Origin: a virus
DNA length: 26,505 nt
Strand: one strand, 5' to 3'
IMG/VR virus record: IMGVR_UViG_3300020406_000023
Span: 1-26,505 of that record
The translations under genes and the position numbers were made by a program. The notes under the pieces were generated by a model, which did not search any database, was not told where the DNA came from, and saw only the letters and a program-made list of their open reading frames with translations. This document shows positions 157-24,129 of this stretch, one piece after another; within the stretch, counting starts at the first letter, position 1; each line of letters begins with the position of its first letter.

Positions 157-602
157 TGGACATAGAAAAACTTAGAGACCAACTCAAGATAGATGAGGGT
201 TGTGTCAATTCTGTGTATTTGGACCACTTAAATTTACCCACGATAGGAATCGGTCACCTGGTGACTGAGTGGGATGATGAGTATGGTAAACCAGTTGGCA
301 CTGAAGTATCTGAGGAAAGAGTAAACGAATTGTTTGACCAGGATGTCCAGGTAACAATCGATGAGTGTAAACTATTGTACAATAACTTTGATGAGTTACC
401 TGAAGAAGCTCAACAGATAATAGCAAACATGATGTTCAATATGGGAAGGCCCAGGTTGTCCAGGTTTCATAAAATGAAAAAGGCAGTTGATGCTAGAAAT
501 TTTGTTTTGGCAAGTCAGGAGATGAAGCAGTCTCGCTGGTACAATCAAGTAACAGCGAGAGCCGAAAGGTTAGTTGAGAGGATGAAAGCTATCCAGGTTT
601 AA
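156..602 (+). CDS. Endolysin, T4-type lysozyme (GH24 muramidase)
   Basis: This 148-aa protein closely parallels T4 lysozyme along its length. The GH24 catalytic triad is visible as E14 in IDEG, D23 in VYLDH and T29 in LPTIGIGH, with the same 9- and 6-residue spacing as E11/D20/T26 of T4. NMMFNMG and the SRWYNQVTARAER segment near the C-terminus also match the T4 fold. It would hydrolyse the MurNAc-GlcNAc bond of peptidoglycan at the end of infection. No signal peptide or SAR segment is visible, so a holin is needed, and none is evident beside it. The ATG overlaps the stop of the preceding basic-protein gene. The last 33 bases overlap, tail to tail, the oppositely oriented winged-helix gene. 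Confidence 0.93.
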   Translation: MDIEKLRDQLKIDEGCVNSVYLDHLNLPTIGIGHLVTEWDDEYGKPVGTEVSEERVNELFDQDVQVTIDECKLLYNNFDELPEEAQQIIANMMFNMGRPRLSRFHKMKKAVDARNFVLASQEMKQSRWYNQVTARAERLVERMKAIQV

Positions 603-818
603 AGATATACTTCTTGATAATCCTGGTAACCTGGTTATCCATCCTCTTTTTTGTATCTTATCTAAATGATACTTGCATGTTTGTTGAGTAACTCCAAAGT
701 GATTTGCAATATCTATTTGTCTAGGCATTACACCTTCACTCTTGAAGTAGTTTTGAATAAACAAAAAAATTTCTTTTTGCTTTTCTGTCATGGGATACTT
801 TACTGATTGACTAGACAA
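570..818 (-). CDS. LexA N-terminal-domain-like winged-helix protein
   Basis: The 82-aa product matches the DNA-binding domain of LexA. MTEKQKEIFLFIQNYFKSEG corresponds to the first helix, PRQIDIANHFGV to the helix before the recognition helix, then a recognition-helix region, and RLPGLSRSISL to the wing, where LexA usually has G.SRGI.L. The S24 peptidase half of LexA is absent, so RecA-stimulated self-cleavage is not expected. I chose the TTG start at 818 because AGGAAAG lies 5 bases upstream; the in-frame ATG at 791 has no good ribosome-binding site. It overlaps the 3' end of the RecT-like gene by 8 bases and is the last gene of the leftward operon. It probably binds DNA as a small regulator; its target is unknown. 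Confidence 0.75.
   Translation of the reverse strand: MSSQSVKYPMTEKQKEIFLFIQNYFKSEGVMPRQIDIANHFGVTQQTCKYHLDKIQKRGWITRLPGLSRSISLNLDSFHPLN
616..652 (+). terminator. Candidate rho-independent terminator after endolysin
   Basis: GATAATC (616-622) can pair with GGTTATC (633-639), giving a 7-bp stem with one T-G wobble and a 10-base loop. A run of six T at 647-652 follows shortly after. It sits just past the endolysin stop and inside the 3' part of the convergent winged-helix gene. The stem is modest and the T-run begins 7 bases after it, so this is a candidate only. Confidence 0.4.
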
Positions 819-1665
819 TGTACTTTCCTATCTCTGTTTCTATTTGTGCTTGTTGCATTTCATCAAGAAGTTTTATTGTCTCAGAATTTTTATCTTTTAG
901 ATCATGCATAAGACTAACTTTTTGTGCCTGAGTTTTTTCTAACTTATCAATAGCCAGCAATGTATCTGAAAATTTCAGGATAAAATCACTAGCTACTGCA
1001 TAAATTATAGGTTTATGACCACCAATAAAATGCATTGTGTATTTAATGGCAATTTCAGAGCCGTCAGGCTTGTTTAGTTTCTTTTTGATATCATCAATCA
1101 CATTAGTATCTTTATCGCTACCAGTGACCTTCTTAAGAGGTTTATTTTCTTCAGGGTAGTCCTGAGCTTCTTCTGTAGTGATAAGACCTTTGATTGCATC
1201 AGGAAATGCATCTCGAAGAGCAAAACCTCTAGCTCTAAGTTGCATCATTCTTTTTGGATAGTCTTGCCAAGGACCTGGTTTATTTGCCAGTCTTGCTTTC
1301 TGTGCATCCTTGTAAGAAAATTCAGCCTTGGTTACTTCAGTCTCACCATGCACATTTCTTTTGACAATGCAGACAGCCTTATCTTCTTCTTCAATGTAGG
1401 TCTCTTCAATACCTCTCCATTCAGGATGGTGTTTGCAGACAGCTATCAAACTATCTCCCCACAATGAAGGCCTACCATTTATGACTGCAATATTCTGAAG
1501 AGCTTGCATAGGTGCAAGGCCAATCTCATATCCCCATTGAATAGCTACCAGGATATCATTTGGTTTTCCCTGGAACTGTTTTGGAATGTGACCTGATGTA
1601 GAAACAAACTTTGCAAACTCAATTGCTTCAGTCAGGTTAGTTGGATTCAAAGTTGGTAATGACAT
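811..1665 (-). CDS. recT: RecT-family single-strand annealing protein
   Basis: This 284-aa protein has the hallmarks of RecT-type recombinases. After a short N-terminus come PKQFQGKPNDILVAIQWGYE and GLAPMQALQNIAVINGRPSLWGD, then a core ending in GPWQDYPKRMMQLRARGFA and LRDAFPDAIKGLITTEEA. RecT-like proteins anneal complementary single strands exposed by a partner exonuclease, and the nuclease gene lies just upstream in the same operon. The frame is open back to 1695, but I place the start at 1665: AAGGAG lies 7 bases before that ATG, and this start sits against the stop of the 58-aa gene. The C-terminal third (after about residue 180) is less conserved and charged, with a long helical region. 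Confidence 0.9.
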   Translation of the reverse strand: MSLPTLNPTNLTEAIEFAKFVSTSGHIPKQFQGKPNDILVAIQWGYEIGLAPMQALQNIAVINGRPSLWGDSLIAVCKHHPEWRGIEETYIEEEDKAVCIVKRNVHGETEVTKAEFSYKDAQKARLANKPGPWQDYPKRMMQLRARGFALRDAFPDAIKGLITTEEAQDYPEENKPLKKVTGSDKDTNVIDDIKKKLNKPDGSEIAIKYTMHFIGGHKPIIYAVASDFILKFSDTLLAIDKLEKTQAQKVSLMHDLKDKNSETIKLLDEMQQAQIETEIGKYIV

Positions 1666-1666
1666 A

Positions 1667-1843
1667 TTATTTCTCCTTCTTTTTAAGATCTTCAATTTGT
1701 TGATTCATTATTTCAAAATCATTTAGTGTCTGTTTAATAATATTGCTAAGATAATATAATTGTTCTCTGATGAGTTGATTTCTCTGTTTTACCCAATTCA
1801 TTTCTCTTTCAATATTATCTTTTTTTATTTCAGTAACTTTCAT
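1667..1843 (-). CDS. Small charged helical protein (58 aa)
   Basis: ATG at 1843 is preceded by AAGGAG at the right distance. The frame runs to a TAA at 1669-1667, almost touching the ATG of recT; its own last codons (AAG AAG GAG AAA) form the recT ribosome-binding site. The product, beginning MKVTEIKKDNIEREMNW, is rich in K, E, Q, I and L throughout and looks like one long amphipathic helix or coiled coil. It is sandwiched between the exonuclease and annealing-protein genes, so a helper role in recombination is conceivable, but no family is recognised. Ribosome-binding sites at both ends make it a real gene. Confidence 0.7.
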   Translation of the reverse strand: MKVTEIKKDNIEREMNWVKQRNQLIREQLYYLSNIIKQTLNDFEIMNQQIEDLKKKEK

Positions 1844-1844
1844 A

Positions 1845-2768
1845 TTAGTTCTCCTTCTTTTCTATTTTAAATTTACGATAATATGTAGTTTCTTTTGCTG
1901 GCACTATTTTCTCAGGCTGTGCCTTCCTGGTAATGGTGGGATAGGCTATATTGATATCACCTACCTCAGCATGTTCTGCTTCGTTCTGTTCCATTATTCT
2001 TTGCAACAGTTTCTGATCTTCTTCTTTTTTCTTGGTCCACTTCTTGATTTCAGCATCACACATAAGCCAGTCTTCAGCTACACCAATAAGACTATCTTTG
2101 ATATCTAAATGATCTAGATTTATTATTGATGGTGGCCCATTGTCCAATGGTGGATAAGGTTCATCCAGGTCTACCTTCTGCCAAAACTCATTCACCTTTT
2201 CCATAATCTGATCGAAGATATCCTGGTCAGCTTCAAAAGGTACAAGTGTAAGTTTTTGAGCTTTACCGAATACTGCAATGATGCCCCACTTAAAACCACT
2301 GCATAGCAATTGTGTTTGCAACTGTATGATTTGATCAGTCCTGGGTAGATCATCAGTGTTTGTAGTTTTGATCTCCAATGCACCGAAGCCTGACAAGATC
2401 ACTGGTTCACCAGTCAGTTGATTATGCATAGTTATCTCACCTTTGATATTCAGGATAGCATCCAGGGAAGCACACAACTTTAGTTCATCTATTCTATATC
2501 CCTGGGTAACCTTGCAAAGTTGAACTTCTGATGCTGGTCCGATATCAGCAACCTTATCTCTTGCCCATTTGATTATGGCATCTTCAAGATAGTTACCTCT
2601 TTCTTTTGCATCCTTACCAAACTCAGTCTCGATAGTCTCGATACCTTGCCTGGCATGTAAGGTTTTTTGTCTTTCTCTTTCATTAGTTGAGAAACTAGTT
2701 TTACCTAGTACGATAGCTGGAACTCTTGAAGCTCCAAGCTCTACTGCATCATTACTATATTTAGCCAT
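1845..2768 (-). CDS. Lambda-exo/YqaJ-like PD-(D/E)XK exonuclease
   Basis: The 307-aa product carries the phage-recombination nuclease motifs in order: an ASRVPAIVLG start motif near residues 13-22, GNYLE with E62, D103 in CASLDAIL, the E132-x-K134 pair in ALEIKTT, and a glutamine motif QLQTQLL at about 149-155. These are the metal-binding and catalytic elements of the lambda Exo/YqaJ group of the PD-(D/E)XK superfamily. The enzyme would chew one strand of double-stranded ends and hand the other to the RecT-like protein, forming a Red-type module. The last 60 or so residues are a charged helical region. The ATG overlaps the stop of the upstream membrane-peptide gene (TAATG), with GGAG upstream. 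Confidence 0.87.
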   Translation of the reverse strand: MAKYSNDAVELGASRVPAIVLGKTSFSTNERERQKTLHARQGIETIETEFGKDAKERGNYLEDAIIKWARDKVADIGPASEVQLCKVTQGYRIDELKLCASLDAILNIKGEITMHNQLTGEPVILSGFGALEIKTTNTDDLPRTDQIIQLQTQLLCSGFKWGIIAVFGKAQKLTLVPFEADQDIFDQIMEKVNEFWQKVDLDEPYPPLDNGPPSIINLDHLDIKDSLIGVAEDWLMCDAEIKKWTKKKEEDQKLLQRIMEQNEAEHAEVGDINIAYPTITRKAQPEKIVPAKETTYYRKFKIEKKEN

Positions 2769-2914
2769 TATACAATCTCCACAAAGTTACGAGCAAAACA
2801 TGCATCATCGATGAGACACACAAAATGAAATGCATAATAAACAATTACACATAAGATAAAAAAGAGAATACATTCTGCAATGTACACTCCATAATTTTTT
2901 ATAAATTTAACCAT
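2768..2914 (-). CDS. Small single-pass membrane protein (48 aa)
   Basis: ATG at 2914 has GGAGA a few bases upstream. The frame of 48 codons ends in a TAA whose final A starts the exonuclease ATG, and its first 8 bases overlap the 3' end of the serine recombinase gene. It thus exactly fills the gap between two certain genes. The product, MVKFIKNYGVYIAECILFF onward, has one hydrophobic stretch over about residues 9-34, with basic residues before it, then IDDACFARN. It should span the inner membrane once. No family is recognised. Options include a superinfection or host-membrane factor, or a holin-like peptide, although it is far from the endolysin and in an early operon. Confidence 0.65.
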   Translation of the reverse strand: MVKFIKNYGVYIAECILFFILCVIVYYAFHFVCLIDDACFARNFVEIV

Positions 2915-3623
2915 AATTTTTCTCCAATCTTTTTACGGCATTGCTAACTGTAGATGCATACCACTTGCCACCTCTAGCAGTATTTGCACCCATTTGATTA
3001 AGCTGGCTGGCTATCTGTCTATAGCTATCACCAACACTTAATAATTTTTGAATTACTGATTCAATATCTTTTACTCTTGTATCTGCTTTGAGCTTGATAA
3101 CTTCAGCACTTCTTTGCCTTGCAAAATCCATGTTTGAATGACAACCAAGTGAGCTAATCAATTTACCTGATTTAGTTTTGTATGTACCATTAGCTTTGAT
3201 CTCATCCTTAATTCTTTGAAGGGCAGACCTGGTTCTCTCTGAGATCTTTTCTTGTTCCATCTGAGCAAACAAAGTTCTCAATGCAAACTTATCTTTACTT
3301 TCAGATATTGTAGGATCATTACAAACAACAAGTTTGACCTTGCCGTTTTTCAATACCTGGTCAAAGAACTTTAGAGTGTGCCAGTCAGTCCTGGAAAATC
3401 TATCCAGGTCAGCTACAATCAATGTGCCTTTACTGGCCCTGACTGTATCAATACATTTGGAAAGCTCAGGTCTAAGCTCAGGAGCTACCTTACCTGAAAC
3501 ACCTTGTTCTTTGAACCATATGACCTGGTGATCTGTATCACCAAGCCATTTCTTTATTTCATTCTCTTGTCTTGCGACATCCTGGGTATCTGTTGATACT
3601 CTTACATATGCACAATAGATCAT
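2907..3623 (-). CDS. Small serine recombinase (resolvase/invertase family)
   Basis: The 238-aa protein begins with the resolvase catalytic motif YVRVSTDTQ, with R8 and the nucleophile S10. The LIVADLDRFSRT motif holds R75 and R78, matching the active-site arginines of gamma-delta resolvase. A long E-helix segment (QMEQEKISERTRSAL) follows. The C-terminus from about residue 195 is a helix-turn-helix of the Hin/resolvase kind (SYRQIASQLNQMG, then a recognition helix with ASTVSNAVKRL). The length is that of a small resolvase/invertase, not of a large serine integrase. It could resolve multimers, invert a segment such as fibre genes, or integrate. No recombination site was identified. It overlaps both neighbours. 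Confidence 0.92.
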   Translation of the reverse strand: MIYCAYVRVSTDTQDVARQENEIKKWLGDTDHQVIWFKEQGVSGKVAPELRPELSKCIDTVRASKGTLIVADLDRFSRTDWHTLKFFDQVLKNGKVKLVVCNDPTISESKDKFALRTLFAQMEQEKISERTRSALQRIKDEIKANGTYKTKSGKLISSLGCHSNMDFARQRSAEVIKLKADTRVKDIESVIQKLLSVGDSYRQIASQLNQMGANTARGGKWYASTVSNAVKRLEKNYG

Positions 3624-4249: not shown

Positions 4250-4571
4250 AGCAAAAAAGACAGTAGTTGATGGTATTACTTTCGATAGCATGAAGGAAGC
4301 CAAGAGATATGGCATATTAAAGATGATGGAAAAATCAGGTGTAATTAGAAACCTGGAGCTTCAGCCGTCATTTGATTGTTATGTAAACCAGGTGAAGGTA
4401 TGCACATACAAAGCTGACTTTCAGTATTTTATGCAACATGGTAAAGGTCCACAGAATCAGGAAGGGTATTGTGTTGTTGAGGATGTAAAAGGTTTCAAGA
4501 CAGCAGTATACAAGCTAAAGAAAAAGTTAGTTGAAGCTTGCCATATCGGTGTAAAGATAGAGGAAGTATAA
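4236..4571 (+). CDS. DUF1064 PD-(D/E)XK nuclease-like protein
   Basis: The 111-aa protein fits the phage DUF1064 family: KYKAKKTVVDGITFDSMKEA at the start, NLELQPSF in the middle, then YKADFQY and VVEDVKG followed by KLKKKLVEA. The likely metal-binding residues are E21, D61, and E82/D83 with K85, in an (E/D)xK arrangement. The family resembles small phage endonucleases, possibly Holliday-junction or branched-DNA resolving enzymes, though its activity is not settled. Such a role would suit a phage that replicates with recombination and must clear branches before packaging. The stop overlaps the methyltransferase ATG (TAATG). Confidence 0.82.
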   Translation: MTKYKAKKTVVDGITFDSMKEAKRYGILKMMEKSGVIRNLELQPSFDCYVNQVKVCTYKADFQYFMQHGKGPQNQEGYCVVEDVKGFKTAVYKLKKKLVEACHIGVKIEEV

Positions 4572-5560
4572 TGCCCTACAATATGAAAGTGCTTGATCTT
4601 TTCAGTGGTATTGGTGGGTTTGCATATGCAAGTGAAAGAATAGTTGGTGGATTTGAAACAGTTGGTTTCTGTGAAATTGATCCCTTCTGTCAGAAAGTTT
4701 TAAAAAAGAATTTTCCGAATGTACCGATTTATACAGACATAAAGGAGCTTGAAAAAAATGCAGTACGATTTAGAGGATATGTTGACGTTATCTGTGGTGG
4801 ATTCCCATGTCAGGTTTTCTCAAATGCCGGCAAAAAAGAAGGACACAAGGACAAAAAAGGTCGTTATCTCTGGCCAGAAATGGTTTCCATTATTGAACAG
4901 ATTTTACCGAGGTTTGTCATTGGAGAAAATGTGCGAGGATTTGTTAACATGCCAATGGGATTGCCAAGATCGGTCAATGACCTGGAAAGCATCGGCTATA
5001 GGGTCGCAAGCTTTGTCATTCCATCTGCATATGCACTCGGATTACCACACAGAAGAGACCGATGCTGGATTATCGCACAATATGTGGCAGACACCAACGA
5101 CAGTTCAGATAGAGCCAACCGAGGAAAGACGAGAGAAAAGGAAAGCTTACAGAAAGAGTATAGGCAGAAAGGATTCTCCTGGTTCTCTGACAGAACAAGT
5201 GATGACTCCGAGCCTATGGCCAACACCGAGAGCATCGATAGGAATGTCAATGGGATTGTCAGAGAACATGGCAAAGCTAAGATACAAGAAGTATCTGGAA
5301 ACAGAAATGGCATATCAGATACACAAGGAAAAGAACAAGAATCAGGTCGGAAGTCTTTCCTCAAAATGGGTAACCTGGCTGATGGGATATCCCAAAGACT
5401 GGCTTACGATTACACCATCGAACCAAAAGACTTGCCAAGAGTTGTCAAAGGAGAAGAAAAAAGGGCAGACAAATTGAAGGCACTTGGTAACTCCATAATT
5501 CCACAATGTGCATCAGTGTTCTTTCAGGCCATCAGGGATATAGTAGATGAATATGATTGA
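4571..5560 (+). CDS. DNA cytosine-5 methyltransferase
   Basis: The 329-aa enzyme shows the C5-MTase motifs: motif I DLFSGIGGF (9-17, AdoMet binding), E35-I-D37, motif IV GGFPCQ with catalytic C80, motif VI E119-N-V, motif VIII PHRRDR (159-164), and a C-terminal motif IX/X region with KALGNSIIPQ. It methylates cytosine in an unknown short DNA target, probably to evade restriction. I chose the ATG at 4571, coupled to the previous stop and preceded by AGGAAG, not the frame opening at 4538. The region between motifs VIII and X, where the target-recognition domain should lie, is polar and odd, and is exactly where the +1 frame encodes another recognisable protein. The stop overlaps the replication-initiator start by 14 bases. 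Confidence 0.93.
   Translation: MPYNMKVLDLFSGIGGFAYASERIVGGFETVGFCEIDPFCQKVLKKNFPNVPIYTDIKELEKNAVRFRGYVDVICGGFPCQVFSNAGKKEGHKDKKGRYLWPEMVSIIEQILPRFVIGENVRGFVNMPMGLPRSVNDLESIGYRVASFVIPSAYALGLPHRRDRCWIIAQYVADTNDSSDRANRGKTREKESLQKEYRQKGFSWFSDRTSDDSEPMANTESIDRNVNGIVREHGKAKIQEVSGNRNGISDTQGKEQESGRKSFLKMGNLADGISQRLAYDYTIEPKDLPRVVKGEEKRADKLKALGNSIIPQCASVFFQAIRDIVDEYD
4758..5477 (+). CDS. Overprinted +1-frame protein inside the methyltransferase gene
   Basis: A 239-codon frame lies wholly within the C5-MTase gene, shifted by +1. Its first ATG (4758) has a perfect AAGGAG at 4742-4747, 10 bases upstream, just after an in-frame TAA at 4740-4742. The product contains SMTWKASAI (around residue 76), a SFHL....TEETDAGL stretch, MWQTPTT, LWPTPRASIGMSMG and SSKWVTWLMGYPKDWL (W204 onward). 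I recognise this pattern as recurring in phage proteins often filed next to, or misnamed as, DNA methyltransferases; no function is known to me. The same DNA also encodes conserved MTase segments (LESIGY...FVIP...PHRRDR). Caveats: the plus strand is T-poor here, which lowers stop frequency, and expression is unproven. Confidence 0.55.
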   Translation: MQYDLEDMLTLSVVDSHVRFSQMPAKKKDTRTKKVVISGQKWFPLLNRFYRGLSLEKMCEDLLTCQWDCQDRSMTWKASAIGSQALSFHLHMHSDYHTEETDAGLSHNMWQTPTTVQIEPTEERREKRKAYRKSIGRKDSPGSLTEQVMTPSLWPTPRASIGMSMGLSENMAKLRYKKYLETEMAYQIHKEKNKNQVGSLSSKWVTWLMGYPKDWLTITPSNQKTCQELSKEKKKGQTN

Positions 5561-6822: not shown

Positions 6823-7245
6823 ATGATTATTTACAGTAAAAAACTTTTGTTACCTATGACAACGTATCCCAAAAAAATACCTACTCGACTATTAAATATT
6901 TTGATAAATCGACTTCCTACCTGGCTAAATACTATCAGTTATCAAGAAATTATTGAAAAAGGCGATAATTTGTATGTTGGTGATTTTGTTGGAATATCTA
7001 AATTTTCATGGTTACATGAGCCTGGATTTGGTCCTAAATCACTTAATGAGCTTAAAGAGATACTAAATTATTTTGGTCAAGATATTGCTAAATATCATAT
7101 AGAAGATGGTCCTAATAATAAACATGAGTTTGGTAGAAATTGGAGACCTGATAATTTCCAAGAATTACTAGATGCGAATTCTGATTTTTATTTAAAAGAT
7201 TGGTTAGGATATCCAATAACACAAAAGGAGGAAGCACATGGATAA
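6823..7245 (+). CDS. RNA polymerase alpha C-terminal-domain-like protein
   Basis: First gene of the long late operon; ATG at 6823 has TAGGAG 6 bases upstream. Residues 50-85 align without gaps with the helix-hairpin-helix half of bacterial RNAP alpha-CTD: YVGDFV for YIGDLV, and PGFGPKSLNELKEIL for PNLGKKSLTEIKDVL in E. coli, keeping the G, K and S that correspond to G296, K298 and S299. The positions of the UP-element contacts R265 and N268 instead read S and E, so minor-groove binding may be altered. A further C-terminal region of about 50 aa (WRPDNFQELL...) is unlike alpha. It might redirect or mimic host polymerase, or simply be an HhH nucleic-acid-binding protein. The fold assignment is good; the role is inference. 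Confidence 0.7.
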   Translation: MIIYSKKLLLPMTTYPKKIPTRLLNILINRLPTWLNTISYQEIIEKGDNLYVGDFVGISKFSWLHEPGFGPKSLNELKEILNYFGQDIAKYHIEDGPNNKHEFGRNWRPDNFQELLDANSDFYLKDWLGYPITQKEEAHG

Positions 7246-17107: not shown

Positions 17108-17647
17108 ATGACAGTAGCAGTCGCATCATTAGTATTAGCTGGAGTAAGTGCATTTGCTCAGATAAAAGCCGGAGAAGCACAAAAGAAGGCATACTACTCT
17201 CAGGCACGATTTAAGGAACTTGAAGGCCGTATAGAAGCAGTGAAGGCAAAAGAGCAAGGCACAAAAGCTTTGGAGAACACAAGACGAGCTTTAGCTTCTG
17301 TAAATGCTACAGCTTTTGCTGGTGGCCTAGAGCCTACAATCGGCACACCAAATACATTTGCAATCAACAATATTATAAAACCTGGTACATCAGACTTTTT
17401 TACTGCCAGGGATAATGCATTCTTAGCAATCAGTTCTTCTCAGGCCCAAGCCCAAGATTTACGTTTTGCTGGAAGGCAAGCAAAGCAACAAGGATATATA
17501 AGTGCTTTAGGAACTCTTGCCAGTGCTGGCATGAACTATGCTTCATTAGGTGGTCCTGGAACTACTGGAACAACCGGCACAACATCTACTGGCATGACAA
17601 GAGGTCCAAGTCCTGGTTTTTATCAGGCAAGGTATGGAGCTAGATAG
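17108..17647 (+). CDS. Internal virion/ejection protein, T7 gp14-like
   Basis: The 179-aa product is near the length of T7 gp14 (196 aa) and lies right after tail tubular B, as gp14 does. The N-terminus is hydrophobic and small-residue rich (VAVASLVLAGVSAFAQI), followed by a long helix with the Q/K/E/A pattern GEAQKKAYYSQARFKE. A second helical half ends in a G/T-rich tail. gp14-type proteins leave the virion first and insert in the outer membrane to begin the DNA ejection channel. The stop TAG overlaps the GTG start of the next gene. Confidence 0.82.
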   Translation: MTVAVASLVLAGVSAFAQIKAGEAQKKAYYSQARFKELEGRIEAVKAKEQGTKALENTRRALASVNATAFAGGLEPTIGTPNTFAINNIIKPGTSDFFTARDNAFLAISSSQAQAQDLRFAGRQAKQQGYISALGTLASAGMNYASLGGPGTTGTTGTTSTGMTRGPSPGFYQARYGAR

Positions 17648-19512
17648 TGGCTAGAACAAGGTTTCAATCATTATCATCTAGAATACAACTTGGTAATATC
17701 CAAGGGCCTTCCGGTATTGGAGCAAGAGAGCAAGGTAGGACATTGAGTTTGTTGAGCAGTGAGCTTAACAAAATGAGTAACTTTTTTTTCAAAAGAGCAG
17801 AAGCAGAAGCACAAATACAAGGTGAAAAATTTGGTGCTGAGAACACTCCGACTGTACAAGACTATCAAAAATCTATAGCCAAAGGTGAGAACCCTTTAGA
17901 ACAATTTGATAGAAAAACAGTTTTTGGATCATCTGCATTTAACCAGGTAGCCAAGACACTTGGTAACAGTCTTATTGTTTCTGCTAGTAATCAAATGAAT
18001 CAAAGGTTTCTAGAGGTAGAACAAACTCCAATAAGTATTGATGAATTTAAAAAAGACCTGAATGCAATAATTTTAGAAACATCCAAACTAGCATATGACA
18101 TCTCACCTGGGATTGGTGAACAAATTACATCTGATCTAAGTATTAAGGCTAATGGTCACTTTTACAAGTATGGTGTTCAGCTAAATAAAATTACAACTCG
18201 TGGTTTACAAAGTGGTGCAACATTAATTTTAGATAATCACCTTAATAATTTAGAGAGTGAAATAACAGCTATACTTCCAAAAAACACAGACACTGTAAAT
18301 CAAAAAGAACTTGCACAAAAAATATATGGCAAGGGTGGTATCAAAGACAGTCTGTTAAACAAATACAGTCAAACGATGATTGGTGCTAGATTTGAAAAAG
18401 AAGCATTTAGATCAGGTGTAAAAGATTGGAACACAGCATTCAAGACAAGTATGTTCTCAACACTCAAAACATTAGCACTCAACAATGGTAAAGATGTATC
18501 AGACATTACAGATGATCTAAGAAGAGGTAAAGCCACTGGTGATAAAATTATAGATGCTTTGGTATCAGGCTTGTCCGGAGTTGATAGGAAACAACTTGCT
18601 ACTGAAATCACAACTATGGTAAATAATCAAAACTCAATAGAAGATTTAGCTGATGAAGAAACAAATGCTTTAGCTGGTGCAACAGCTTCAGAACTAGAAG
18701 TTAAAATTACTAACGACATAGAGCAAGGAAAACCTCAAGCGACAATAATTGCAGATTTAGCTAAGTTAAAAAAACTTGTTGATCTAGACGATGAAACAAA
18801 TGCTTGGGAAACTTTGACAAAAAAGAACAACAAGGCTGGTGGTGTTAGAACTGTTAGTGTTCAAAAAACATTTCTAGACTTGAACAAGAAAGCTGGGTTT
18901 GGAACACTTACATATAAACAACTTAACGATAAGGCTGACCAACTAATACCAAAAGATTTTAATTCAATACTTACAAAACTTAATGGCCAGCAATCACAGA
19001 GCTTTGCAGATGCTAAAACTATACTGGCAAAAGAATTAGGATTTTTAGTTGATAGAGAAATAAGAGATCAGAAAGATCCACAATATGCAAAAGGCGAAGT
19101 GTTTGTACAGATACTCGGTAAACTGCAAGAACAAGAGTTGAACTACAATAAAACAAAAACCACTGCCGATGCTCCCTTTAATCATGTGAAGGTTGTGCAA
19201 GATTTAGTTAAAGTAGATGGTGAACTAATTTTACAAGAAATATTTACAAAAAAAAGAGATAGCTTCAAAAGAAATTACTTTGATACTTTTGTTAGAGAAT
19301 TTCCTGATTTGATATCTGCTGATCAGCCTATGACAAGAGCAAATGTTTTAAAGATGGAAGATAGGCTAGAGGATATGCTTGAAGATAAAAACAAAAGAAA
19401 AGGAGTTAAAGGCACATTTGAATCAGGCAACGAGAAAAAAGAAAAAGCAAGAATTGAAACATTTATATCAATTACAAAAAGTATGCTTGCTGAAGAAAGG
19501 TTTAGCCAATGA
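17647..19512 (+). CDS. Internal virion/ejection protein, gp15-like (621 aa)
   Basis: It starts with GTG at 17647, overlapping the previous stop (TAGTG), with GGAG upstream. The product is long, hydrophilic and mostly helical with many K, E and Q, lacking membrane segments: the character of T7 gp15, which occupies this place. The N-terminal region has RIQLGNIQGPSGIGAREQG and a helix with FKRAEAEAQIQGEKF. The remainder alternates helices with charged linkers. It probably joins the periplasmic part of the ejection channel. I rely on context and composition, since no catalytic motif is visible. Confidence 0.75.
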   Translation: MARTRFQSLSSRIQLGNIQGPSGIGAREQGRTLSLLSSELNKMSNFFFKRAEAEAQIQGEKFGAENTPTVQDYQKSIAKGENPLEQFDRKTVFGSSAFNQVAKTLGNSLIVSASNQMNQRFLEVEQTPISIDEFKKDLNAIILETSKLAYDISPGIGEQITSDLSIKANGHFYKYGVQLNKITTRGLQSGATLILDNHLNNLESEITAILPKNTDTVNQKELAQKIYGKGGIKDSLLNKYSQTMIGARFEKEAFRSGVKDWNTAFKTSMFSTLKTLALNNGKDVSDITDDLRRGKATGDKIIDALVSGLSGVDRKQLATEITTMVNNQNSIEDLADEETNALAGATASELEVKITNDIEQGKPQATIIADLAKLKKLVDLDDETNAWETLTKKNNKAGGVRTVSVQKTFLDLNKKAGFGTLTYKQLNDKADQLIPKDFNSILTKLNGQQSQSFADAKTILAKELGFLVDREIRDQKDPQYAKGEVFVQILGKLQEQELNYNKTKTTADAPFNHVKVVQDLVKVDGELILQEIFTKKRDSFKRNYFDTFVREFPDLISADQPMTRANVLKMEDRLEDMLEDKNKRKGVKGTFESGNEKKEKARIETFISITKSMLAEERFSQ

Positions 19513-21287
19513 TGGTATTTGATGAAGATCAGATTTTATCAGAAATATTTGCTAGTAATACACTAAGAGACAAAGGTGTAAATCTAAACATTGCAATTTC
19601 AGAAAATGGTGCAAACATCCAAAAACAAAGGACTATTATTGATGAAGCAGTAGATGTTGTAAAAGCGACTCCAGGTGCTGTTGGTGATTTTGGTGTAGGT
19701 GTTGCTAAAGGTGTTCCAGGTGGTGCAAGTAAGTTTGGTACTGAGATAATGGACACTATCACTAATGGTGCATACAGCAAATCATTTATACCTTTTGTAA
19801 ATGAAAAGTTACCTATCATAGGTGATATAAATAATTATATAAATAATTTGTTGAAGCCTGAAGGCACTGCTCAAAAAGCTGGTGCTGGTTTTGGTGAAGC
19901 CATTGGTCAGGTGGTTGTACCTGGTGCTGTGGGAGCAAAAGCTCTTCAAGGTGCTAATATTTCATCATCATTTTTGAGAAATGTTTTAGGCTATGGCACG
20001 GCTGAAGTTATAGGCATGAACCCAAAAGACCCTGGGTTAATTGAGCTTGGTACATCTTTATTCGTATCTAATGATAATTTAAAACAAGAAATAATAAACA
20101 GCCTAAAAGCCGATGAAGATCAATCTGTATTAATGCAAAAAATACAAAAAGCACCACAAAGGTTTTTTGAGGGTGGTATTGTAGGAGAAGCATTAGGCAA
20201 GGCTCTAGAAGGTGTTGGTGTTTTATATAGGGCTATGAAAGGTAGTGATAAGATTAAGAATGCCTTGCAGAACATTGGAGAAAAAGCCCAGGGTGAATTA
20301 GACCTAGATGCTAATACGACTACCCTATCCATGAATGCTGTAGGTGAAGCAGATAAATTAATCAAACAAGGTTTAGCAAAGTTAAAAAAACCAACTGATA
20401 AAGAAGATGGTATACTTGCGTTTCATGGTAGTGGTGCAGACTTTGATGAATTTAAATTAAGTAAGATAGGAACTGGTGAAGGTAATCAGGCTTTTGGATA
20501 TGGTTTATATTTTACTGACAGTGAGGACATAGCTAAGTTTTACAAAAATCAAATCTTGAAAACACAAAATGTAGAATTTAAGGGCAAGCCCATAAAATTT
20601 ATGTCAGATAAACAAGATATTAGCGATAAAGATGCTGTTTTAAGTAAGGTAAGAGATAGAATTATAGGTGGTAAATTTGATGCAAAAGAAGCTATTGATA
20701 ATGTAAAATATGAATATGAGCAAACAATAGAAAATAGTTTTGATTTGACTAATGATCTTAAAGGCATTGATAAAATAGATTATGAAAGATTAAAATCAAG
20801 TTTAGATTTTATTAATAATTTAGATGTCAATGATTTTGATTATCAACCAGGCAAACTTTATAAAGTAAATCTGAAAACTACAATTCAAGATTTATTAGAC
20901 TATGATTTACCTCTAAAAGATCAGCCTGATAATATTAAAAAAGCAATCAAAAAACTAAATTTAGATTTTATAAATGAAAATAGCACTGGAGAGGATATTT
21001 ACGACCTAATAGCTGTTAGAAAGTTCAGTTTAGGAGATAATAAGTTAGATAGAGATATGTTAAAATTTGACGACAAAAGAGTTAGCGAGTTGTTAAATTC
21101 AGTAGGTATAAAAGGTTTAAAATTTAAATCAGGCCAATTATCAGGTATTGAAGATAGTAAGGATACTAATTTTGTAATATTTGATGATAAAATCATAAAC
21201 ATTTTGGCTAAATATGGAATAGTTGGTCCAGTTGCTGTCAGTTCCTTGGGCTTATCTAAACAAGGGGATGATGATGGCTCTACTTGA
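19509..21287 (+). CDS. Ejected virion protein with ADP-ribosyltransferase-like domain
   Basis: The 592-aa product has two parts. Residues 1-250 are small-residue rich and amphipathic (KATPGAVGDFGVGVAKGVPG, then a GAGFGEAIGQVVVPGAVGAK stretch), like membrane-active ejection proteins. From about residue 302 it matches the ADP-ribosyltransferase domain of phage polyvalent proteins: FHGSGADFDEFKLSKIGTGE (H306-G-S), FGYGLYFTD, and a C-terminal VGIKGLKF...NFVIFDD..I. This is the H-Y type of ART fold, binding NAD+. The third catalytic position is not certain by eye. Position among the internal proteins means it would enter the cell with the DNA and could modify host proteins early. Its start overlaps the previous gene by 4 bases. 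Confidence 0.75.
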   Translation: MMVFDEDQILSEIFASNTLRDKGVNLNIAISENGANIQKQRTIIDEAVDVVKATPGAVGDFGVGVAKGVPGGASKFGTEIMDTITNGAYSKSFIPFVNEKLPIIGDINNYINNLLKPEGTAQKAGAGFGEAIGQVVVPGAVGAKALQGANISSSFLRNVLGYGTAEVIGMNPKDPGLIELGTSLFVSNDNLKQEIINSLKADEDQSVLMQKIQKAPQRFFEGGIVGEALGKALEGVGVLYRAMKGSDKIKNALQNIGEKAQGELDLDANTTTLSMNAVGEADKLIKQGLAKLKKPTDKEDGILAFHGSGADFDEFKLSKIGTGEGNQAFGYGLYFTDSEDIAKFYKNQILKTQNVEFKGKPIKFMSDKQDISDKDAVLSKVRDRIIGGKFDAKEAIDNVKYEYEQTIENSFDLTNDLKGIDKIDYERLKSSLDFINNLDVNDFDYQPGKLYKVNLKTTIQDLLDYDLPLKDQPDNIKKAIKKLNLDFINENSTGEDIYDLIAVRKFSLGDNKLDRDMLKFDDKRVSELLNSVGIKGLKFKSGQLSGIEDSKDTNFVIFDDKIINILAKYGIVGPVAVSSLGLSKQGDDDGST

Positions 21288-24129
21288 TAATCTTATAAAG
21301 TTATTAAAGGCTGGTGAGAAAAAACAAGCTCAGATAACTAAAGATAGACTGCCAAGTGATGAAGTTACTTTTGGCTCATCAGGTGTAACTTTCAGGGCTA
21401 TTGATGATAAAAATATAGATGCATTCAACCAAGCATTGAAGCAAGAAGGTTACAAAGGTCCAGGTATAAACCTTCAAAGAGTTGGTGAAATATTATCTGA
21501 AAAACTAGATGGTCAAATGAAAACTCTTAATTTAGAAGAGTTGATATTAGCCATATCTAAAGATAACGAAAAATTCTTCAAGTTTTTAAAAAGAGATCCA
21601 CAAAGCTTAGAGGAAGTTGTTGCGACTGCAAAAGGTATGGGCCTGGATAGAATAGCAGACGATTTACTTAGAAGAAACCCAGGTGATGTTTTACCAGTTG
21701 AACATCTAGTTGGTGGCATGATGTTAATAGCATCTCTAGGTAGAAACTTAGATGACATGGCTACAAAAATTAAAGGTATGTCAAAAGGCCAAGAGAAAGT
21801 TGATCTATACAAACAATTTAATATCAACATAGCAATAATGAAAAATCTTATTGGCCAGGTTAGTGGTGTAGGATCAGAAGCTGGTAGAACTCTTGGCATA
21901 TTATCAGCTATGAAAAAATTATCTAACATTGATATGGTAGATTTCTATGTAAAAGCAGATAAGATTTTACCAACGGAAGATGATAATTTTATAAATTCAT
22001 TTGTAGATATGTATGCAACACTTCCAAAACCAGGTCGTATGGAGTTTGCAAAACAAGGTGCATTTGTAAGAGCTTATGATGTTGCTATGGAGATATACAT
22101 AAATGCCCTACTATCTTCACCGGTAACTCATGTAGTCAATATGGCCGGTAATGCTATTTATTCTGCACAAAGAACTTTAGAAACTGGACTAGCTGGTCTT
22201 GTTGGAGAAGCAAGAACTAGGATGGGTATAGGTGGCAAAACTGGTGATAGAGTTTATCTTGGTGAGTTCAATGCAGAAGCTCATGGAGCTAAGATGGCAT
22301 TGATGGATGCTATGAAAAGCTTTGCACTTACCCTGGGTATTGAAGGCTCAGAAAGTGTTGCAACAAAGATTGATCTTAAAAATCTTACATCTATAGGTAA
22401 CACTGACAATATAAGAACAGTAGTAGAGCAAATACAAAATATAAAAGGTGGTGGCCTGGTAGAGTTTGGTAAAACATCATTCATGCCAGCCTTAAATATT
22501 TTAGGTATTATGACTAGAATGCCAGGCAGATTTCTCGCTTCAGAAGATGCATTTTTTAAAGTGATTACTGAGAGAAAGGTTTTATATAGAGAAGCTTATC
22601 GTAATATGCAGATTAAGTATGAAACACTTATAAATGGTGGTGCAAGTAAAGAGGTAGCAAAGAGAGAAGCAGAAAACGTATACAAAGATATTTTACTTAA
22701 TACTGATAAGTATGATGATATCAAACAGCTAATGACACAAGAAGCCAGGGAATCTACTTTTCAAGAAGACCCTCAAGGAGCTTTTTCTGCATTGGTCAGG
22801 GCATCTAACATACCTGGTGGAAAAGTAATTATACCTTTTTCCAAGACACCTACAAACATTGTGAAGGCTGTTTTTGACAGAACTTTGAATTGGTCACCAG
22901 TTTATAGAGCAGTAAAAAAAGGTGAAGGTGCTGAGTTTGACAAAGCTTTTTCAAAACTAGTTTTAGGTAACTCAATATTTGCAAGTATGGTTTATTTGGC
23001 TAGTGGTGAGTATGGTGATCAAATAGTCATAAACGGCAGTGGTCCAAGTAATCCAAAGGCTAGAAAATTTAATGATGCACCACCCTACTCTATTGGTTTT
23101 AAACAAGAAGATGGCTCATATAAATATTTTACATTTTCAAGGTTTGATCCTATCTCAGGTGTTTTAGCTATGGCATCTGACTATGCATATTATGCTCAAA
23201 ACTCAGGTGATGCAGATATGGTAAGTCTAGAAAATATATATACATCTGGTGTGTTGGCTATATCAGAATATGGTTTAAGTCTGCCTTTTTTCCAGGGTGT
23301 ATCAGAATTGCACAAAGCAAGTTTTAATCCTCAGGGGTCTACTGAAAAGTTTATTGAACGTATACAAATATATCTTGGTCAAAAAGCTGGTGGTGTTGCA
23401 ACTACAACTAATGATTTTATAAATCAATTTTTGCCAGGACAACCTCTTATAGGTGCAACATCATTTACTGCAACACTTGAAAGAGTTGGCAATCCTGATG
23501 CATCAAATGTAATGCTTGATGAAGAGCAATTACTTAAAGTTGAAAGATCAGGATTTCCAAATGTTATGAGAGGTTTTTATTTAGCCCTGAATAGAGCAAA
23601 GTCTAGAAATCCAATATTTAGTGATCAGCTGCCACCAGCACTGAATTACTGGGGAGAAGTTAGACAACAGACATCAGGTAAATTTACTGATTATTTTAAT
23701 CCAATAAAAATACAAGAAGTTGGGTATGATGCTGTCAATGAAGAGTTAAGAGCTTTAGCAGAAAATGGATCAGGTGTTTTTGGTGGTCATAAAAAAAGAT
23801 ATGAAGGCAGTTACTTTACAGCAGAAGAGTATAATAAATACATTGAGTTATTCAACACTATCAATGTTGTTGATCAAACTCGTGGTTTGTATTTAACTAA
23901 AAGTGATCCTGGTTGGAGACCTGAAAATACTATCAAAGAAAAATTAAGAATAAAAATTACTGATGATCAATCAGGATATAAAGAATTATCTTCTGATGAA
24001 AAGTTTCAAGAACTAAATGCTATCAGGTCTAAGTACTCAACTGGAGCTATAAAAAAACTATTTGAAATGATGCCAAGTACAAAGATGAGAGTTGAGAATC
24101 CTGAGAAGCTTGCGATAGGGGGATCATAA
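21274..24129 (+). CDS. Large ejection/polyvalent virion protein (951 aa)
   Basis: It takes the place of T7 gp16. I choose the third of three successive ATGs (21274) since AAGGGG (21262-21267) is 6 bases upstream; the frame itself opens at 21223. The N-terminal and middle parts are helical, including small hydrophobic stretches (YINALLSSPVTHVVNMAGN). The C-terminal half has the mark of large phage polyvalent proteins: IPGGKVIIPFSKTPTNIVKA, SIFASMVYLASGEYGDQ, then NGSGPSNPKARK and YFTFSRFDPISGVLAMASDY. No lytic transglycosylase motif like that in T7 gp16 was found. It probably forms the inner-membrane part of the channel for DNA entry. Confidence 0.8.
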   Translation: MALLDNLIKLLKAGEKKQAQITKDRLPSDEVTFGSSGVTFRAIDDKNIDAFNQALKQEGYKGPGINLQRVGEILSEKLDGQMKTLNLEELILAISKDNEKFFKFLKRDPQSLEEVVATAKGMGLDRIADDLLRRNPGDVLPVEHLVGGMMLIASLGRNLDDMATKIKGMSKGQEKVDLYKQFNINIAIMKNLIGQVSGVGSEAGRTLGILSAMKKLSNIDMVDFYVKADKILPTEDDNFINSFVDMYATLPKPGRMEFAKQGAFVRAYDVAMEIYINALLSSPVTHVVNMAGNAIYSAQRTLETGLAGLVGEARTRMGIGGKTGDRVYLGEFNAEAHGAKMALMDAMKSFALTLGIEGSESVATKIDLKNLTSIGNTDNIRTVVEQIQNIKGGGLVEFGKTSFMPALNILGIMTRMPGRFLASEDAFFKVITERKVLYREAYRNMQIKYETLINGGASKEVAKREAENVYKDILLNTDKYDDIKQLMTQEARESTFQEDPQGAFSALVRASNIPGGKVIIPFSKTPTNIVKAVFDRTLNWSPVYRAVKKGEGAEFDKAFSKLVLGNSIFASMVYLASGEYGDQIVINGSGPSNPKARKFNDAPPYSIGFKQEDGSYKYFTFSRFDPISGVLAMASDYAYYAQNSGDADMVSLENIYTSGVLAISEYGLSLPFFQGVSELHKASFNPQGSTEKFIERIQIYLGQKAGGVATTTNDFINQFLPGQPLIGATSFTATLERVGNPDASNVMLDEEQLLKVERSGFPNVMRGFYLALNRAKSRNPIFSDQLPPALNYWGEVRQQTSGKFTDYFNPIKIQEVGYDAVNEELRALAENGSGVFGGHKKRYEGSYFTAEEYNKYIELFNTINVVDQTRGLYLTKSDPGWRPENTIKEKLRIKITDDQSGYKELSSDEKFQELNAIRSKYSTGAIKKLFEMMPSTKMRVENPEKLAIGGS

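Follow-up and report, generated by a model that had tools for sequence, protein, structure and literature searches.

Introduction

ADP-ribosyltransferase (ART) domains have been described in injected polyvalent proteins of phages, in some cases joined to components of the virion (Iyer et al. 2017, PMC5512222), and a survey from 2022 found NAD-ADP-ribose (NAD-ADPr) components in 18% of podoviruses, with ARTs often encoded beside head genes (PMC9503650). Here, a stretch of 26,505 nucleotides from a marine phage (IMG/VR record IMGVR_UViG_3300020406_000023, positions 1-26,505; hereafter the window) was analysed with regard to its open reading frame (ORF) at 19509..21287 (+), which starts with ATG and encodes a 592-residue protein that we call P0001. 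A sequence-only reading of the window had described this product as an ART-like domain carried by an ejected virion protein. P0001 shares with the ART-PolyVal/Tox-ART-HYD2 proteins the sequence family, a His in strand 1, a Tyr in strand 2, a context of late virion genes and the proposed co-injection with DNA. On the contrary, those ARTs reside in large multidomain proteins, while here one or two cargoes, exchanged as cassettes, end what appears to be a split gp16.

Other described systems resemble P0001 in part. T4 Alt is alike in principle, being a packaged and injected ART that acts before phage transcription, but it is a standalone head protein of a contractile-tailed phage and belongs to the Alt/VIP2 clade with an R-S-E active site (PMC5512222). 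The gp16 protein, or internal virion protein D, of the T7-like marine phages HTVC011P (gp34), ProddE and CRP-114 occupies the same place after gp14 and gp15, has a homologous core and matches the N-terminal part at profile level, although in the phages sampled it is unsplit and without recognised cargo. Polymorphic toxins of the CdiA-CT type consist of a constant N-terminal delivery part, a short conserved linker and unrelated C-terminal enzymes that are exchanged by recombination. The P0001 family likewise combines a constant N-terminal part, a linker and exchanged C-terminal domains; unlike in those toxins, delivery would be by the virion, and no immunity gene follows, the next gene being an overlapping gp16 core.

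With a probability of roughly 65%, P0001 is best explained as the N-terminal part of gp16 bearing an interchangeable ART cargo, which would be packaged, injected before phage transcription and able to ADP-ribosylate host macromolecules. The features that enter this explanation, as read from the sequences, are the architecture, the ART family with its conserved H and Y, the gene position, the exchange of cargoes and purifying selection. Ejected ARTs are a known kind, of which this one would be a new member, and it is the exchanged slot in the putatively split gp16 that is worth following.

The ART Domain and Its Conserved Residues

The C-terminal half of P0001 has an ART fold of the family found in phage polyvalent proteins. 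Pfam ART-PolyVal (PF18760) matches residues 304-347 with E-values (E) of 1.5e-4 for the whole protein and 6e-5 for the domain alone; the domain scores 24.2 bits against a cut-off of 31.2, that is, below the Pfam threshold, and the same model is matched at E<=0.01 by all 52 members of a second alignment of relatives (best 9.5e-8). PHROG 31411 matches P0001 with E 3e-6, tblastn retrieves phiGT1_5 (30% identity over 285 residues, E 8e-24), vir555 and LS06 as relatives, and a scan of IMG/VR finds relatives encoded at at least 589 places. Taken with these matches, the motifs quoted by the sequence-only reading, namely FHGSGADFDEF (residues 305-315), FGYGLYFTD (329-337) and NFVIFDD (554-560), are real and not due to chance. 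A sequence search of the Protein Data Bank (PDB) with the ART domain or its profile gave no match.

In an alignment of 81 sequences, H306, G307, G323-E324-G325, G330, G332, Y334, F335, Y345 and Y451 are invariant, N554 (79/80) and D559 (about 68/80) being nearly so. H306 is located in a predicted strand at residues 302-308 (strand 1) and Y334 in one at 333-336 (strand 2), and both NAD-binding positions are occupied as foreseen in 81 of 81 sequences. Regarding the strand-5 Asp of Tox-ART-HYD2, N554 opens the strand and D559 follows it, each being a candidate for this residue. Considering the active-site definitions of the ART clades (PMC5512222), membership of the R-S-E clade of T4 Alt was rejected, His306 and Tyr334 being present instead. 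The earlier comparison with T4 Alt stands therefore as an analogy only, since this ART belongs to the H-Y polyvalent clade. The domain is also under purifying selection: among 300 codons compared between the window and its relative L005, 19 changes are synonymous and 8 non-synonymous.

An AlphaFold model of this half, built on 52 sequences, reached a predicted local distance difference test (pLDDT) value of 83.5. Its top solved match by VIA-align was 9k3a_B, residues 1418-1604, from the pre-ejectosome of cyanophage A4 (Z 10.8, root-mean-square deviation 4.6, 157 residues aligned), further matches being diphtheria toxin (Z 7.8) and ParT, tankyrase and PARP1 (Z 6-7). The ART fold proposed from the motifs is thus recovered by structure prediction. 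Predicted viral proteins matched by the model include ART-PolyVal-like or large polyvalent phage proteins, with E down to 6e-18. Within the structurally matched part, ORF27 of Anabaena phage A-4L (A4L_27, 1717 residues) spells LYHGTR and GSGTYF, so that a solved podophage pre-ejectosome contains an ART-fold domain. Such a domain, with H-G-T and G-x-G-x-Y-F in A4 (PDB 9k3a), is thus placed inside an ejection protein of a podophage, as is proposed for P0001. The two differ in that the A4 domain lies near the C-terminus of its 1717 residues and has no profile-detectable sequence relation to the ART of P0001; no relation was found between the remainder of A4L_27 and the gp16 core.

Gene Context and the N-Terminal Part of P0001

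The gene for P0001 shares 4 bases with the end of the gene upstream, overlaps also the start of the downstream one, and sits between the gp15-position and the gp16-like genes, which is the place of a gp16-like ejection gene. The features of the locus are the following:

17108..17647, + strand: gp14-like internal virion protein (phrog_418, E 1e-12; Pfam T7_gp14, E 0.018, below cut-off)
17647..19512, + strand: gp15-position gene, 621 residues (no family match; place conserved in relatives)
19509..20384, + strand: constant part of P0001, residues 1-292, probably corresponding to the N-terminus of gp16 (76-90% identity in seven close relatives with differing C-termini; profile match)
20310..20384, + strand: linker ahead of the cargo, NTTTLSMNAVGEADKLIKQGLAKL, with the 5' exchange border (counterpart elsewhere TTLSSMGxGEI..LAKLAP)
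20409..21269, + strand: ART domain, about residues 301-587 (H306 at 20424, E324 at 20478, Y334 at 20508, N554 at 21168, D559 at 21183)
21259..21290, + strand: 3' exchange border, ATGGCTCTACTTGATAA (end of the cargo gene overlapping the conserved start of the gp16-core gene)
21274..24129, + strand: gp16-like core (internal virion protein D), a separate gene beginning MALLDNL (phrog_6651, E 1e-14; tblastn)

The tblastn matches of the gp16-like core are internal virion protein D of pelagiphages, of roseophages and of Desulfovibrio phage ProddE. The location among gp14-, gp15- and gp16-like genes claimed from the sequence alone is consequently correct, the phrog_418 match lying upstream and the phrog_6651 match downstream. 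The phage is, on the contrary, not of the classical T7 type then assumed: the nearest isolate found is the Methylophilales phage MEP301 (terminase 65% identical), which carries neither an RNA polymerase nor a DNA polymerase gene (PMC8024684).

The profile of residues 1-292 aligned with the N-terminal part of 35 unsplit gp16-like proteins over 118 columns, with a probability of 87% and E 4e-6 in one comparison. HTVC011P taken alone gave no profile match to the constant part, and the profile of this part (A1) recovered the immediate family only among the loci searched, and nothing in phage records; no homology to the N-terminal regions of ART proteins further afield emerged from it. Unsplit gp16 proteins of pelagiphages, roseophages and ProddE have ~1230-1330 residues, some 530-680 of them ahead of the core region. 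An ART is found inside a single unsplit gp16-like protein in three loci (L031, L033 and L047), as a gene directly 5' of a separate gp16 core in six (L017, L018, L020, L023, L024 and L087), and within one very long protein at the same place in vir555. This arrangement in other phages, together with the profile match, suggests that P0001 is the N-terminal portion of a gp16 that has been split, ending in an ART cargo, and not an additional ejection protein. Of the claim of an ART carried by an ejection protein, the ART and the ejection-gene setting are supported, the carrier being best read as the N-terminal part of gp16 and the ART as a replaceable passenger.

The amphipathic, ejection-type N-terminus that had been proposed is weakly visible (mean helical moment 0.27, vs 0.22 in the ART half), with Gly+Ala of about 22% and no strongly hydrophobic stretch. 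The profile match to the gp16 N-terminus is the better argument for an ejection-type protein.

In MEP301, a 161-residue protein without cargo stands at the place of the constant part (L093 5069-8656, comprising gp25, gp24 and gp23), and gp24 and gp23 look like a gp16 broken at a different site.

Catalytic Versus Structural Role of the ART Domain

Several observations weigh against a catalytic ART borne by a gp16 N-terminus. The relation of the constant part to gp16 is the least firm step, the one profile match behind it being moderate. Plain Foldseek of the ART model against the PDB gave nothing significant, and the VIA-align scores other than that of A4 are only middling. By eye, the third active-site position is N554 where PARPs have Glu, which makes catalytic activity uncertain, and the ART copy of L150 (4785-8015) has lost its His (AYSGSG) as well as the Glu of GTGEG, so that some copies may be inactive.

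The Asn at the third position, the L150 copy without His and the ordered ART-fold domain within the A4 pre-ejectosome would also suit a degenerate, non-catalytic domain, with a purely structural role in filling or stabilising the core stack of the ejectosome. This explanation is nevertheless unlikely, considering that the 81 sequences show no variation at H306, Y334 or the glycines around them, and that the domain is swapped for unrelated folds or lost altogether, which a needed structural brick would not allow.

A Slot for Exchanged Cargoes

Residues 1-292 of P0001 are common to the first six IMG/VR relatives (76-90% identity), and the ART is found in only one of them, L005. Judging from these sequences, the ART is a replaceable cargo and not a core virion function, since most near relatives lack it. 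By blastn, the window is collinear with the six relatives at 72-93% identity across the structural region, the alignment being interrupted at the cassette, between 20308-20384 and 21259-21263; the most distant relatives, L008 and L012, show small additional breaks elsewhere. A gp16-core profile retrieved about 40 more contigs with the same order, namely gp14, gp15, constant part plus cargo, and gp16 core. The cargo states observed are ART (window and L005), A with a second domain, A-like alone, B, a distant B, B followed by ART in one protein together with the constant part (L150, 4785-8015), C, D, E, E with the second domain of A, and almost no cargo (L129 and L143).

The cargo is preceded by a conserved linker, mostly like TTLSSMGxGEI..(A/S)KLAP, whose variant TLSMNAVGEADKLIKQGLAK is present in the window, L005, L009 and L132. 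At every junction read, the cargo gene is followed by the gp16-core gene, with which it overlaps; the C-terminal DGST common to the cargoes is due to this overlap with the core start. A programmed frameshift fusing cargo to core was considered and rejected, no conserved slippery site being seen by eye at seven junctions and an overlapping start being simpler.

Closely related phages differ in what the slot contains. L137, L141 and L142, with backbones 94-97% identical in DNA, carry three cargoes (D, C and A-like, respectively), and the cargo differs as well between L116 and L118 (backbones 93-94% identical). L129 and L132 have gp15 and core proteins 98-99% identical, L129 being without cargo: compared with L132 (5609-7384), cargo C is gone in L129 (7629-8195) save for its last residues, reflecting either an empty slot or an assembly loss. 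Conversely, cassette C has 93.5% DNA identity between L009 and L132, whose gp16 cores share 43% and whose gp15 proteins share 27% protein identity, and cassette B has 89% DNA identity between L010 and L106, with the core at 65% and gp15 at 41%. A gp16-core tree with 45 rows requires no fewer than 19 changes of cargo label, where 10 would be the minimum for 11 labels, a count that is approximate given a quick tree with two long branches and labels assigned by us. These comparisons point to cassettes exchanged by recombination between the linker ahead of the slot and the start of the gp16 core.

Every close relative is a contig assembled from a metagenome, which speaks in some measure for differences in cargo that are assembly chimaeras. 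Such an origin is nonetheless very improbable: an identical in-frame junction turns up in contigs of many different metagenomes, the cargo frames are open, the linker and the start overlap fit both sides, and cargo C stands directly 5' of the gp16 core in 43 of 73 loci, a repeated layout.

It is fairly probable that MEP301-like marine podophages possess a dedicated slot at the gp16 split, running from the linker to the start codon of the core, in which different enzymes (ART, HhH-GPD DNA-glycosylase-like and others of unknown fold) are rapidly exchanged among genomes that are nearly identical elsewhere, so that each phage would differ in its pre-transcriptional weapon or counter-defence. In the literature searched, no description was found of a gp16 split by a slot in which cargoes are swapped, one of them glycosylase-like, nor any paper on internal virion proteins with an ART or on hypervariable ejection proteins.

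Alternative Cargoes

Cargo C, found in L009 and relatives, matches DUF7178 (PF23802) with E 6e-11. Among solved structures, its model (pLDDT 86) comes closest to two 8-oxoguanine DNA glycosylases, from M. jannaschii (Z 9.4) and T. maritima (Z 9.0), followed by the queuosine enzyme DUF2419, AGOG and MutY; Z values below 13 are modest for a helical protein, and plain Foldseek against the PDB gave nothing significant. The glycosylases matched are of the HhH-GPD type, and cargo C has thus a predicted HhH-GPD (8-oxoguanine DNA glycosylase) fold. K205, D223, T224, H225 and R228 are invariant in 45 sequences. Endonuclease III (EndoIII) has a catalytic Lys/Asp motif, and the Lys-to-Asp spacing in cargo C (K-x17-D-T-H-x-x-R) equals that of EndoIII, K205 and D223 being candidate catalytic residues. 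Cargoes of this DUF7178 type occur at L009 8877-10052 and in loci L216-L288, and Roseobacter phage CRP-212 has cargo C in a gene that lies between those for portal and coat.

Patterns of the K...D-x-[HW] kind in A, A-like, E and F are no more than suggestive. A common HhH-GPD ancestry of A, B, E and F with C, drawn from such motifs, was not confirmed by profile comparison, which related C to LS06 (93%) and A-like to F (78%) and nothing among the remainder, a match between B and ART being the ART fused in L150.

Regarding the other cargoes, D (L121, L123, L131, L133, L136 and L145; slots ending MFSATPLVVGQENE) comprises 425-566 residues with no Pfam family, a conserved YIEEIQSDWGQ motif and very variable insertions. 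The second domain common to cargoes A and E, phrog_2563 of unknown function (L006 9600-10312; L112-L117 and L147), indicates that the cassettes are themselves mosaic.

Proposed Mechanism and Host Context

From the features above we infer packaging, injection, catalysis and a target in the host. P0001 would be packed in the head on the portal, alongside the gp16 core and the proteins resembling gp14 and gp15, and would leave the virion ahead of or with the DNA. In T7, the head releases its ejection proteins ahead of the DNA, and these assemble into a conduit; by analogy with this order a cargo on the gp16 N-terminus would precede phage transcripts. The ART would then reach the host cytoplasm before any phage gene is expressed and transfer ADP-ribose from NAD+ to host macromolecules, its likeliest use being to favour host transcription of phage DNA or to disarm host defence. 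As MEP301 lacks RNA polymerase, there would be an immediate benefit from injecting an ART that biases the polymerase of the host or disables defence.

A different possibility is that P0001 is made late and acts, unpackaged, in the producing cell on host factors or competing phages, as might be thought from the related modules that phiGT1 and CRP-212 encode between portal and coat, outside the gp16 place. The fusion to, or tight overlap with, a gp16-like ejection gene in several lineages and the structure of the A4 pre-ejectosome speak for an ejected P0001 instead, late action being slightly less probable even than the purely structural role.

Residues 46-88 of a 140-residue protein encoded in the window (6823-7245, +) resemble the alpha-subunit C-terminal domain of RNA polymerase (PDB 9zum, E 2e-5; Pfam RNA_pol_A_CTD, E 0.08). 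T4 Alt modifies RNA polymerase alpha, and a phage mimic of its C-terminal domain, in a lineage that has no polymerase itself, could matter for this reason to the ART question. The window also encodes, at 573-3623 (-) and 4571-5560 (+), a LexA-type DNA-binding protein, RecT, a serine resolvase and a C5-cytosine methylase; MEP301 has likewise been described with a resolvase-domain protein (PMC8024684).

Implications

The slot would show where, in nature, ejection proteins can accommodate folded domains that vary greatly in size. A DNA-glycosylase-like enzyme among the ejected proteins would represent, as far as the literature searched shows, a new class of phage injectant. Pairs of near-identical phages differing in cargo only would be natural experiments on the function of ejected enzymes and on the defences that drive their exchange. 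If the explanation proposed here is true, the first proteins to enter the cell would constitute a fast-evolving arsenal, even in streamlined ocean phages without an RNA polymerase.

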